In this document: positions 14,338 through 18,914 of the stretch, in pieces
How the letters are laid out: each line of letters begins with the position of its first letter
How positions within the stretch are numbered: position 1 is the first letter of the stretch
Origin: an uncultured Clostridia bacterium
GTDB taxonomy: Bacteria > Bacillota > Clostridia > Christensenellales > CAG-314
Assembly (NCBI GenBank): GCA_947623225.1
Contig: CANQGO010000008.1
Coordinates: forward strand, 1-63,491
Length of the DNA stretch: 63,491 nucleotides
Direction of reading: 5' to 3'
Translations under genes and position numbers: made by a program
Notes under the pieces: generated by a model
Seen by the model: the letters and a program-made list of their open reading frames with translations, nothing else
Told to the model about the DNA's origin: nothing
Database searches by the model: none

Positions 14338-15417
14338 TCAGTTGTCCTCTCCATCATCAAACATACCGCTTGCCAAGGCGTCGGAGTATGACTTCACGTC
14401 TATCTTCCAGCCCGTCAGTCGAGCAGCAAGGCGAGCATTTTGTCCTTCTTTGCCGATTGCCAAAGAAAGCTTTTCGTCAGGGACAACTACTTTCGCCTCT
14501 TTTGTATCTTCATCCGCTTGTACTATAAGTACCTTGGCAGGTGACAATGCTCTGGCGATATAGTCCAGGATATCACTGCTCCAAGGAATAATATCTATTT
14601 TTTCTCCGCCTATTTCCTCAACGATCGCATTAACGCGCACGCCCTTGTTTCCGACGCAGGCACCGACGGCATCCACCTCGGGATCCGTGGAGTATACAGC
14701 CATCTTAGTACGGAAACCCGCCTCGCGTACTATGCTCTTGATCTGAACTATATCTGCGCGTATCTCCGGAACTTCATTTTCGAACAAGCGGCGAATAAAC
14801 ATGTAACTTGCGCGAGACAACATGACTTGCGTACCGCCAAGTCCATCACGCACACGCTTGATGAGCACCTTTATGCGGTCGCCGGCATGAAATTTTTCAC
14901 CGGGGATCTGGTCCTGTACCGTCAGGACACCTTCCATCTGGTTTTTGCCTATTTCAACATAAATAGTCCCGTCATCTTTGACGCGAGAAACTATACCGAT
15001 AATCAATTCGTTTTCTTTATCGGAGAATTGGCTGTACGTCACGTCTTTTTCCGCCTGGTGAAGACTATTCTTTATCACCTGCACGGCATTTTGCGCAGCA
15101 ATACGGCTGAAATCACGAGGATTGATTTCCGTCAATACTTCGTCGCCGAGTTTATAACTCTTTTTGATTTGCTGAGCATCTTCCAAAGAGATTTCCTTCT
15201 CGGGCGTTTCAACAGCTTCGACGACGATCTTGGAAATATATATTTTAATAGTATTTTTCTCGGGGTTGATTTTCACTACAATATTGGACGCTTCGCCGTA
15301 GTGTTTCTTGCAAGCGATCGTCAATGCAGTTTCCAGAGACTCAATGACTCTCTCTTTGCTTATACCCTTCGTTTCTTCAAGCTCATCAAGGGCAAGAAAA
15401 AATTCTTTGCTGATCAT
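14338..15417 (-). CDS. nusA: Transcription termination/antitermination factor NusA
   Basis: NusA (359 aa) binds RNA polymerase and controls pausing, termination and antitermination. The N-terminal domain (1-130) has VIESLETALTIACKKHYG and FSRIAAQNAVQVI. The S1 domain follows (GIVSRVKDDGTIYVEIG), then KH1 and KH2, with AVGACVGNKGVRVNAIVEE and LSLAIGKEGQNARLAARLTG. It ends soon after KH2, without the acidic repeats of E. coli, as in other Firmicutes. It lies second in the rimP operon. Confidence 0.97.
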   Translation of the reverse strand: MISKEFFLALDELEETKGISKERVIESLETALTIACKKHYGEASNIVVKINPEKNTIKIYISKIVVEAVETPEKEISLEDAQQIKKSYKLGDEVLTEINPRDFSRIAAQNAVQVIKNSLHQAEKDVTYSQFSDKENELIIGIVSRVKDDGTIYVEIGKNQMEGVLTVQDQIPGEKFHAGDRIKVLIKRVRDGLGGTQVMLSRASYMFIRRLFENEVPEIRADIVQIKSIVREAGFRTKMAVYSTDPEVDAVGACVGNKGVRVNAIVEEIGGEKIDIIPWSSDILDYIARALSPAKVLIVQADEDTKEAKVVVPDEKLSLAIGKEGQNARLAARLTGWKIDVKSYSDALASGMFDDGEDN

Positions 15418-15428
15418 GATTTTTCCTC

Positions 15429-15884
15429 CTAAAATTCGATTATCGGCGACACTTTCGCCGCATCTTTCTTGTTAAATATTATTTGTTTTTTTTCCGTCGC
15501 CAAAGTAAATGTAGCCTCATCGAAATCGATCAATACCCCTTCGAAATTTTTCTTTCCCTCGTACGGGCAGAATAGTTTGACGGATATTTTTTTGTTCAGA
15601 TTTCGTTTGTAATCTCTCGGCGTAGTCAACGGTCTGTCCAAGCCTGGCGACGATACGTTCAATGTATACGACGTGTCTATGGGATCCAACTCATCCAACG
15701 GCTCATCTATTGCCCGGTGCAATCTGGAGCAGTCATTCAGTGTCACACCGCCCTCTTTATCGATGACGATAGTAAGCACCTGTCCGCCTGCCTGTTTGCC
15801 GAATTGTATTTCTACTACCTCAAGTCCCATGCTTTCGGCAATAGGTGCGACCAATTCATATACGGCATCAGCAACCTTCCCCAT
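15429..15884 (-). CDS. rimP: Ribosome maturation factor RimP
   Basis: RimP (151 aa) assists 30S assembly around S12. The two-domain pattern is clear: N-terminal helix and strand (LVAPIAESMGLEVVEIQF), then IVIDKEGGVTLNDCSRLHRA and YTLNVSSPGLDRPL, followed by an SH3-like C-domain. A strong Shine-Dalgarno sequence (AAGGAGG) lies upstream of ATG 15884, itself 11 nt after a leader hairpin. It is the first gene of the roughly 10-kb unit that ends at efp. Confidence 0.96.
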   Translation of the reverse strand: MGKVADAVYELVAPIAESMGLEVVEIQFGKQAGGQVLTIVIDKEGGVTLNDCSRLHRAIDEPLDELDPIDTSYTLNVSSPGLDRPLTTPRDYKRNLNKKISVKLFCPYEGKKNFEGVLIDFDEATFTLATEKKQIIFNKKDAAKVSPIIEF

Positions 15885-16234: not shown

Positions 16235-17881
16235 TCACTTCGCACGATTTGCCAGAAAGCACATGCAACGTGCAATCAACGTAGAATTATCAAAACAAAA
16301 TGCCGACTTTTGATAAGGTATTTTGCACTTTTTGGCTATATCGTCGGGTTTTGAATAATTGACATGCGTATCAAATGTACTGTTGGAAGCAAGCGTTTCA
16401 AGAAAGTCCGTTTGCTCGACCGTTTCATTTGTAAATTGATAATTCAGTGGCGCAGCATAATAATTCAGCAACCGAATGATTTGTTCGAGATCGTTACCGA
16501 CCAATATGCATCCATGCAGGAATTTATACAAATCCCCTATTATTTCCGTAAGCGTCGGATGGAATATCAACTGAGCATTCTCCGTTTTACATTGGGACAA
16601 AATTCTTTCTTCGCGAATATGTCTCTCCGGGTTGACATATGTAAAAAATCTCTCCGTCATATTGCCGTTGTAGACTTTCGTGGCACACACTGCAAAAATT
16701 TTATCCTCGGCTACACTTATGAATCCGGTACCATTGACATGCAAGACTGCATACTTCTTGCCGTCGATCATAGATTCCTTGCGTACCTGTTCGACAAAAT
16801 TTTCTTGTCTGTATTCACTGAACCGTTCCGGTTGGATAAGCAAATAATCAGTCGACGGCTCCCGATTGAATTCCCGTGCCGGATCGACCGGAGAAATTCT
16901 GCAAGTGCCAAGATCATAGACGTGCATCTCGAGCATTCCCCTTTGCCCCATGACCAATTTACCGCGCACCACCACAGACATTCCGTCCGCCAGCCAAAAC
17001 AGTCCCTTCAACTTTTTATCGTTTGACAGTTGCCGCTTTTCCGCAAGAGTTTTGGCTTCCGCTTCACCCTGCCCGGTCTGATCCATGATCGCCTGTACAT
17101 CCGTCACCTGCAATCGAACAAATACTACGCATTGGATAGAAGACGTTCCGTCCCCCAGGCTAAAGGACGCTATCTGCAACAGAGCATTGGTCTTAGATCT
17201 CCTGCAACGCTTATTGCTTACTTTACCGCATAGTATACAACTATCCAGCGGATTACGCAGATCGGTTATATACATAGGCATACCTGTTATATTTTTTCCG
17301 TAAAGCATATGGACGGAATCTATATGGAAATACCTGGATGGGCGTAACAATTCCTTGTTGATCGCCAACTGAACAAGTTTTTCCTGTTCTTTCACTCCCG
17401 CTCTGTGGTCGTCGATTTCTTCTTCACTTATAAGTAAAGATACAGTATAACATGTATATTCGGCATAATGCTCCGATATTTTCTGTACGAAGTCTGATGA
17501 CTCAATATTTTGTTTGGTAAAGGCATCTACTGTGATTTCTACCGTTATATTTCTGCCCAATATATGTACTTTTATATTGTTTCGCGTTATATTAGAGAAA
17601 ATCGGAAAACATTCGCGCAAATAATCCACCAAATTGCGCGAAAAACTGCTTTCCGTAAAAGTGTCATCTGCAAACTTTACTTGACAGGAATATCCTGCAG
17701 GCATCTGTCTGCGTATAAAATCAGTTATTTGATACTTGACATTTTCATCAAAAACGGGCGAAAAAGGATAGGACAAATTGCATGTCACCTTGCGTTGCAT
17801 TCTGTCCACGCGAATTTCTCTCATTCTCAAATCTATTAAATTCGGATAAAGTTGGTGTAGTTGATCAATTATCATTTGCAA
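16235..17881 (-). CDS. Truncated PolC-like protein without polymerase (inactive exonuclease)
   Basis: A 548-codon ORF exactly where Firmicutes carry polC (between ispG and rimP). It aligns by motif with the PolC N-terminal domain (about 1-200), the OB fold (about 204-325, starting MYITDLRNPLDSCILCG) and the DEDD exonuclease (about 376-540). The first exonuclease motif, FDVETTG in PolC, reads LHVNGTG: Asp and Glu become His381 and Asn383. The HN-A-x-F-D region reads VGNDLEQI, and the last motif keeps Asp531 but not its His. PHP, palm, fingers and thumb domains are missing, where PolC is about 1,430 residues. The long intact frame suggests a maintained, non-catalytic protein. Its start overlaps ispG by 17 bases. 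Confidence 0.8.
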   Translation of the reverse strand: MQMIIDQLHQLYPNLIDLRMREIRVDRMQRKVTCNLSYPFSPVFDENVKYQITDFIRRQMPAGYSCQVKFADDTFTESSFSRNLVDYLRECFPIFSNITRNNIKVHILGRNITVEITVDAFTKQNIESSDFVQKISEHYAEYTCYTVSLLISEEEIDDHRAGVKEQEKLVQLAINKELLRPSRYFHIDSVHMLYGKNITGMPMYITDLRNPLDSCILCGKVSNKRCRRSKTNALLQIASFSLGDGTSSIQCVVFVRLQVTDVQAIMDQTGQGEAEAKTLAEKRQLSNDKKLKGLFWLADGMSVVVRGKLVMGQRGMLEMHVYDLGTCRISPVDPAREFNREPSTDYLLIQPERFSEYRQENFVEQVRKESMIDGKKYAVLHVNGTGFISVAEDKIFAVCATKVYNGNMTERFFTYVNPERHIREERILSQCKTENAQLIFHPTLTEIIGDLYKFLHGCILVGNDLEQIIRLLNYYAAPLNYQFTNETVEQTDFLETLASNSTFDTHVNYSKPDDIAKKCKIPYQKSAFCFDNSTLIARCMCFLANRAK

Positions 17882-18914
17882 TCAGGTCTATTTCCTTTTT
17901 GAATTGTTCTATTGCCTCTGTGGCTGAGACTGTTTTATAACGCTGTCCGTGCTTAAAAAATACACAATTTCCTTTTGCGCCTGCAAGTCCGAGATCTGCA
18001 TCGGCACACTCGCCGGGTCCGTTTACTTCACAACCCATTACGGCAATTTTTAGCTTCTTATTTAAATCCCTTACGTATCTGTAAATTTCGTCGGCTGCTT
18101 TTTCGAGATCGATGGAACAGCGACCGCATTTAGGACAGGATACAAATGTAACGCCTTGCCGTAAACCAAGGGCGATCAGAATATCTTTGGCTGCATATAC
18201 TTCACGCACCGGGTCCGCAGTCAAAGATACGCGCACGGTGTCGCCAATACCATCCAGAAGCAATGCGCCTATTCCGATGGAATTTTTGACCAATCCCTGT
18301 TCAAGCAATCCCGCTTCCGTCACGCCCAAGTGCATAGGATACCCCAATTGCGCGACCATACGACAAAGATTGATCGTATCTCTCACATCGGAACTTTTTA
18401 CCGATAAAACCAAATCAAAGAAATTTCTTTTCTCAAAGTATTCCACATATGAGCGCAGACTGTCAAACAACGCACGCAATTTATCTCCGTTTGATTTCGC
18501 CAACGCTTCCTTATTGACAGAACCGCTATTGACACCAACTCTGATCGGAACGTTGTGCTGCTTGGCACAATCTATTACACTATCCAACTGCGGCAACGTC
18601 ATGTTGCCGGGATTTATTCGTATCTTGTCTGCACCGGCTTCCATTGATGCAATGGCGAGACGATAATCAAAGTGAATGTCCGCTACGAGCGGCATGTCGA
18701 TCTGTTTACGAACAACGGCAAATGATTTAGCGGCATTGGCGTTTGGTACAGCGATCCGCATGATTTGACAACCGGCACGACGACATTCTTCAATCTGTCG
18801 GATAGTTCCATCTATATCCTCTACGGATAGATTGGTCATAGACTGTATCGTCACGGGGTTGCTGCCACCAATAACGATATCACGGATTTTTACTTCCCTT
18901 GTATTATTTCTCAT
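17865..18914 (-). CDS. ispG: 4-hydroxy-3-methylbut-2-enyl diphosphate synthase IspG
   Basis: IspG (GcpE, 349 aa) performs the sixth step of the MEP isoprenoid pathway, reducing the cyclic diphosphate with a [4Fe-4S] cluster. The TIM-barrel part starts with GGSNPVTIQSMTN. The cluster ligands are Cys260, Cys263 (SCPKCGRC), Cys295 (MGCEVNGPGEC), with Glu302 following as the usual catalytic or ligand residue. Length is normal for the two-domain form. It overlaps the rseP stop by four bases and shares an operon with dxr and uppS. Confidence 0.97.
   Translation of the reverse strand: MRNNTREVKIRDIVIGGSNPVTIQSMTNLSVEDIDGTIRQIEECRRAGCQIMRIAVPNANAAKSFAVVRKQIDMPLVADIHFDYRLAIASMEAGADKIRINPGNMTLPQLDSVIDCAKQHNVPIRVGVNSGSVNKEALAKSNGDKLRALFDSLRSYVEYFEKRNFFDLVLSVKSSDVRDTINLCRMVAQLGYPMHLGVTEAGLLEQGLVKNSIGIGALLLDGIGDTVRVSLTADPVREVYAAKDILIALGLRQGVTFVSCPKCGRCSIDLEKAADEIYRYVRDLNKKLKIAVMGCEVNGPGECADADLGLAGAKGNCVFFKHGQRYKTVSATEAIEQFKKEIDLIANDN

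Follow-up and report, generated by a model that had tools for sequence, protein, structure and literature searches.

What becomes of a PolC that has lost its polymerase, and what would the remaining protein be kept for? PolC is the replicative polymerase of the low-GC Gram-positive bacteria and an antibiotic target, as described in passages of PMC12592400. In the window, i.e., the whole stretch of 63,491 nucleotides from an uncultured Clostridia bacterium that was analyzed here, the polC locus carries a shortened PolC.

A short PolC gene at the polC locus

The gene, its domains, and its surroundings are arranged as follows:

16235..17881, minus strand: short PolC gene, intact, 548 codons from TTG
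17875, minus strand: ATG, the likely start of short PolC (546 aa)
17417..17875, minus strand: N-terminal region, residues 1-153 of 546, two small alpha/beta units, possibly KH-type-II-like
16889..17284, minus strand: OB fold, approximately residues 198-329
16988..17104, minus strand: OB-fold segment with a helical insertion of about 30 residues
16793..16807, minus strand: position of the clamp-binding-like motif, QENFV in the window protein
16238..16765, minus strand: exonuclease fold (residues 371-546), catalytic residues lost
16733..16741, minus strand: exonuclease motif I, His-Val-Asn replacing Asp-x-Glu
17865..18914, minus strand: ispG, upstream neighbor (also the case at most polC loci in the order)
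15429..15884, minus strand: rimP, downstream neighbor
14338-15417: nusA, beyond rimP

The initial annotation had described an intact 548-codon ORF between ispG and rimP that keeps the PolC N-terminal region, the OB fold, and the exonuclease fold without PHP or polymerase domains, and both the frame with its neighbors and the domain content were confirmed. Pfam and NCBIfam gave no match of the window protein to a polymerase (palm, fingers, HhH) or PHP family; a PHP match was also missing in two intact relatives and was clear in one full PolC. The OB fold scored above the Pfam cut-off. All NCBIfam matches were below cut-off and nearly all concerned exonuclease parts, the best being PRK06807 3'-5' exonuclease (E 7.7e-13), with the PolC-type models PRK00448 (E 1.3e-11) and TIGR01405 (E 3.2e-9) likewise below cut-off. 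The predicted structure is a confident model. Searched whole with Foldseek, the model reached only low query TM-scores, up to 0.27; in domain-wise comparisons, the OB and exonuclease folds matched solved PolC structures. Among the matches listed for the model of the N-terminal domains, some are KH domains, such as those of S3 (1wh9) and NusA (2cxc), and none is a tau domain V structure.

In the exonuclease, motif I reads VLHVNGTG, with His381 and Asn383 (TTG numbering) at the positions of the catalytic Asp and Glu of FDxETTG, precisely as had been noted before. The other DEDDh residues are also changed, from Asp to Ile in motif II and from His to Ala and Asp to Asn in motif III, with the assignments of these two motifs resting on one alignment. 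The window protein has the DEDDh fold with its catalytic residues replaced. It stops after the exonuclease, so the C-terminal clamp motif of PolC is absent, and a motif-like sequence is found in the linker between the OB fold and the exonuclease instead. Across the genus, cysteines C32, C213, C216, C236, C249, C325, C517, C527, and C537 show little or no variation. Rfam at gathering thresholds found no RNA families in the window.

Descent from PolC and conservation in the genus

Descent was examined with three alignments: A1 contains 20 members of the window's genus, A2 31 short proteins picked for intact motifs from 37 short loci, and A3 18 of 20 full PolCs fetched. A2 omits L035, L038, L051, and L062 (dead motifs), L074 (contig end), L071 (without OB fold), and L050, the second locus of G056, which is not a short PolC; two PolCs of family f13 with dead exonuclease motifs were omitted from A3. 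The genus profile matched full-length PolC of the order with an E of 4.6e-27 over 486 columns and the 31 intact short PolCs with an E of 1.8e-66, and the 31 short PolCs matched the 18 full PolCs with a probability of 100 and an E of 4.4e-78, again over 486 columns. The neighbors at the 37 short loci are ispG and rimP (27), rseP and rimP (2), or ispG only (8). At the PolC loci fetched, ispG is upstream in 16 of 20, with rimP as well in 9. The window gene occupies the place that defines a polC locus here, between ispG or rseP and rimP. ORF 16235-17881 is a descendant of PolC at the polC locus; its proposed identity as a PolC remnant is borne out by the profile match to full PolC and by the locus.

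The window protein is matched almost end to end in 24 of the genus's 25 genomes, its own among them. The matching frames are open and measure 545-557 aa (605 in one case), and identity is 38-58% for the 23 other genomes; the 25th genome is 79% complete. Because so many genomes match near full length with open frames, chance is excluded. A TAA flagged in two of these matches sits immediately 5' of their ATG.

Purifying selection was assessed by dN/dS in 10 pairs of dead and 5 pairs of intact proteins, of which 4 and 2, respectively, had a finite whole-protein dS. In these 4 of the 10 dead pairs, omega was 0.06-0.14 for the whole protein, and in the exonuclease part it was 0.07-0.13 where finite; the values are rough because dS is near saturation, and in 6 of the 10 dead pairs it was saturated. 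The dead exonuclease domain is clearly conserved and under purifying selection. That dN/dS is far below 1 where measurable, with intact frames throughout nearly the entire genus, upholds the earlier judgment that the gene is not a decaying pseudogene.

Distribution in the order and class

Of 247 Christensenellales genomes drawn (at least 90% complete), 81 have a PolC polymerase (called at E <= 1e-100), and 165 of the remaining 166 have a short PolC. The short-PolC search was done with the A2 profile, which matched 134 genomes at E <= 1e-99 and, in family f1 (that of the window), 20 genomes with E between 1.5e-83 and 1.5e-69; it also found short PolCs in family f17 (7 genomes) and genus g187 (3), and that of G257 (f17) was found in a follow-up. 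A PolC match (E <= 1e-100) together with an A2 match (E <= 1e-99) occurred in none of the 247 genomes. The only one of the 166 without a short PolC is G078, which belongs to a PolC-bearing family. As 165 of 166 genomes without a PolC polymerase carry the short gene, a misassembly that merely makes the ORF look truncated, against which the initial annotation had cautioned, is excluded.

In a set of 101 related genomes, a PolC polymerase match was read in 29 (26 over the model cut-off), and 68 of the other 72 matched the window protein, some of them cut by contig ends; of the remaining four, G069 carries a short gene at the polC locus, and G015, G036, and G078 gave no match. The short form occurs in 16 of the 33 families sampled in this set, an extent that had not been foreseen from the window. 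Among the matches listed for 147 genomes drawn from the class, near-full-length A2 matches were confined to Christensenellales, and those in other orders were mostly exonuclease-only and lay mainly inside frames of about 1,300-1,500 aa. A scan of named genomes gave no relative with the window protein alone and 21 loci when based on an alignment.

Some individual records deserve mention. The polC locus of G069 (f30) has a short gene (L071:4654-6054, 466 aa) with intact exonuclease motifs, the OB fold of which, by reading, seems lost. In G078, L072:4412-5335 and the sequence upstream encode a DEDDh exonuclease with a Cas2-like domain joined to its N-terminal side, and the genes ahead of this fusion are presumably type I-E CRISPR genes. 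L108, L111, and L113 come from two records labelled Corallococcus sp. and one labelled Candidatus Fimimonas merdipullorum. NCBI taxonomy puts Candidatus Fimimonas in Myxococcaceae, and the Corallococcus labels look wrong; we adopted the placement in order Christensenellales, family CAG-314, that is given in the paper naming Candidatus Fimimonas.

A probable single truncation and repeated loss of catalytic residues

A FastTree tree of NusA, IspG, RseP, Dxr, RimP, and DnaE from 84 taxa has one split, with a local support of 1.0, between 19 PolC-bearing taxa plus G078 and the 64 others. Because this single split separates the long-PolC from the short-PolC lineages, one ancestral loss of the polymerase half would be the simplest scenario.

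The DEDDh columns are invariant in the 31 intact short PolCs, and members of 14 of the 15 short-form families inspected (f20 aside) have intact exonuclease motifs, the inspection covering a minority of the 134 genomes. Within f1, catalytic residues are lost in g1+g6+g7+g11 (group support 1.0) and in g3+g8, and they are also lost in the 8 of 8 f17 and 3 of 3 g187 (f32) genomes examined, partly by reading. As the placement of genus g5 (support 0.236) leaves one loss or two in f1, there were at least three losses. The OB insertion of about 30 residues is conserved in g1+g6+g7+g11 and is missing in g3, g8, and the intact forms measured. Separate DEDDh-type exonucleases are found in genomes with dead short PolCs at L183, L184, L186, L187, and L195 (f17) and at L188-L190 (g187).

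The mirror case exists as well. Twelve PolC-bearing genomes of the order gave no A2 exonuclease match, and 8 of them were fetched (L201-L208, from G278, G289, G300, G329, G399, G407, and G415 of f11 and G273 of f31). All 8 encode a full-length PolC with the palm motif PDIDLNFS kept and the exonuclease motifs lost; two control PolCs of f11 keep both palm and exonuclease motifs. Two PolCs of f13 (L090, L092) also have no exonuclease motifs. Clostridial PolCs without exonuclease have been noted before, in passages of PMC3919608.

DnaE as the probable remaining replicative polymerase

The assembly of the window's genome has 1.48 Mb in 52 contigs and is 92% complete. A PF07733 search found one C-family polymerase palm in it, in a DnaE of 1,186 aa with PHP, palm, finger, HhH, and OB domains, the gene of which adjoins what we take to be murB-like and whiA-like genes. 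The initial annotation had left the choice between another polC and replication by DnaE plus a separate exonuclease. A second polC was not found in this 92%-complete genome and is rejected as an explanation, as DnaE is the only PF07733 match and TIGR01405 gave no PolC polymerase. A split PolC with its polymerase half elsewhere was rejected too, since 166 of the 247 genomes have no PolC-model match at E <= 1e-100. Most likely, DnaE is left as the replicative polymerase in the short-PolC clade, and this part of the initial proposal stands.

The separate exonuclease fared less uniformly. The window's genome has one RNase_T-family match, a separate exonuclease of 194 aa, and 19 of the 25 genus genomes encode separate proteins of this family, with frames of about 190-280 aa, but 3 of the 25 have no RNase_T-family match outside short PolC, some of which may be explained by incompleteness. 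The PHP active site of DnaE, for which text in PMC12926913 gives the definition HHDHEH[C/H]DH, is intact in 55 of 55 readable DnaEs (19 from genomes with a dead short PolC, 27 with an intact short PolC, 7 with a full PolC, and two others, G069 and G078), one further DnaE being cut off. This site is the more consistent proofreader of the two. With an intact DnaE PHP domain as a standing proofreader, the DEDDh site may have become dispensable.

A clamp-binding-like motif in the linker

A new linker stands where half the PHP domain was, and a clamp-binding-like motif within it was not foreseen by the initial annotation. According to passages of PMC12309361, the clamp-binding consensus is QL[S/D]LF, or QxxLF, and the first, fourth, and fifth positions matter for clamp binding. 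A strict motif, Q..[LMI]F, is present in the OB-exonuclease linker of 20 of the 31 intact short PolCs, and a loose form, Q.[SDNTA][LIMF][FL], worded after the sequences were seen, in 28 of the 31; the other three are without the Q. Over the 31 whole proteins, shuffling predicts 4.4 strict matches (at most 11 in any of 200 shuffles); outside the linker, there are only two. Among the 18 full PolCs, 13 have the strict motif in the last 40 residues and none has it at the OB-PHP junction. In the window's genus, the motif is Q..[FL][VTD] in 22 of 22 aligned members with an invariant Q, and QENFV of the window differs from QxxLF in its fourth and fifth residues; the short PolCs of g187 read QSSLY or QSYLY. 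What points most strongly to a protein still at the clamp after truncation is the appearance of a linker motif together with the loss of the C-terminal one.

Possible functions of short PolC

Most likely, short PolC is a stand-alone, epsilon-like accessory of DnaE. An ancestor of the Christensenellales clade would have lost the PHP and polymerase domains of PolC in place and retained the N-terminal domains, the OB fold, and the exonuclease as a protein of about 510 aa, while DnaE, with a PHP proofreading site of its own, would have taken over as the replicative polymerase. The QxxLF motif of the linker may tether short PolC to the sliding clamp in a manner similar to E. coli epsilon, and forms with an intact DEDDh site probably proofread for DnaE. 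Binding to the clamp and to DnaE is suggested by sequence features, and the N-terminal pair, which is distantly related to tau domain V according to a title cited in PMC3919608, is, as a speculation, a candidate for the DnaE contact. Loss of the catalytic residues followed in the window's genus and in two or more other lineages, with the protein still under selection; there, the dead form most likely acts at the clamp or DnaE, as a tether or scaffold. For the window's genus, our best guess is a scaffold without catalysis, bound to the clamp or the replisome. Taken together, truncation in place, a clamp-tethered accessory of DnaE, and retention of the dead form as a scaffold constitute the best explanation, which we consider rather probable. 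A fuller account has about an even chance of being right: here, PolC would have been cut down to its proofreading arm and gained a clamp motif, yielding an epsilon-like DnaE subunit, at least three losses of the active site would have turned it into a non-catalytic clamp adaptor, and other lineages of the order would have done the reverse, keeping the PolC polymerase with a dead exonuclease.

Arguments against a clamp role are the drift of the motif away from QxxLF in the window's genus, the three intact forms without the Q, and the operon that holds the gene, which also contains rimP, nusA, and infB; the OB (perhaps KH) folds would also suit RNA binding. Short PolC could accordingly have left replication in the window's genus, with its OB and N-terminal domains binding RNA in transcription or ribosome assembly together with RimP, NusA, IF2, and RbfA, a role that would agree with the operon, the KH domains among the matches listed for the N-terminal model, and the lost DNA-proofreading residues. 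We consider this unlikely, as the context is inherited (ispG is upstream at 16 of 20 PolC loci, 9 of which also have rimP), the N-terminal domain of PolC itself is described as two KH-II subdomains in passages of PMC3919608, and the linker has the clamp-like motif with its Q invariant in 22 of 22 genus members. It is less probable still that the dead short PolC acts as an adaptor for a separate DEDDh exonuclease that took over proofreading. Such exonucleases are indeed present in the window's genome, in 3 of 3 g187 and 5 of 8 f17 genomes, and, with frames of about 190-280 aa, in 19 of 25 genus genomes; however, 3 of these 25 have no RNase_T match outside short PolC, which incompleteness may explain in some cases, and stand-alone DnaQ homologues are common in bacteria anyway, as stated in text of PMC12926913.

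Two further explanations concern the gene itself. That the short form is primitive and full PolC a later fusion is very improbable: nothing beyond the existence of a short form speaks for it, near-full-length matches were restricted to one order among the matches listed in the 147-genome class survey, and the long forms are all on one side of a single split. A decaying pseudogene or an assembly error, as the loss of most PolC domains and of the catalytic residues might suggest, is hardly credible in view of frames that stay open in 24 of 25 genus genomes and across many families of the order, an omega of 0.06-0.14 where finite, and a confident structure model.

Significance and comparison with known systems

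This is an order where PolC shrank to an apparent accessory protein and where short as well as long PolCs have seen their DnaQ-type sites inactivated. As the stages are spread over many families, the change from a two- to a one-polymerase replisome becomes testable, and so does a purely structural job of a proofreading subunit. These gut bacteria are predicted to be without the target of PolC inhibitors.

Parts of this picture have precedents. In passages of PMC3919608, which counts polymerases, Clostridia with a single DnaE1 and PolCs without the Exo insertion were already noted, and a route by loss of PolC was proposed. Passages of a survey from 2026 describe three polymerase sets and state that PHP, not DnaQ, is inactivated in Pol III alpha subunits; a dead exonuclease is kept there in about half of PolA1, with the polymerase still attached, whereas it is gone in short PolC (PMC12926913). 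In the literature searched (listed titles, beginnings of abstracts, and passages, mostly of open papers), we found no description of a polymerase-less PolC.

Full-length PolC (that of subtilis, of E. faecium, 9qpc, and of G. kaustophilus, 3f2b) shares with short PolC the locus and the homologous N-terminal region, OB fold, and exonuclease over 486 profile columns. In contrast to full-length PolC, short PolC has no PHP, palm, fingers, or HhH, and in place of a C-terminal clamp motif it has a motif in the linker between OB fold and exonuclease; members of the window's genus have also lost the catalytic residues. Short PolC does not qualify as a PolC polymerase, nor does the window protein qualify as an active DnaQ proofreader.

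The closer functional parallel is E. coli epsilon (DnaQ). In epsilon, QTSMAF adjoins the catalytic domain, and epsilon makes the polymerase-clamp complex about four-fold tighter, according to passages of PMC3642679. Unlike epsilon, short PolC arose by truncation of PolC, has additional N-terminal and OB domains, carries its motif N-terminal to the exonuclease rather than C-terminal, and has no known DnaE contact. Like epsilon, it is a separate protein with the DEDDh fold where only DnaE was found, and relatives of the window protein have a QxxLF-like motif beside the exonuclease. Most likely, short PolC works like epsilon.
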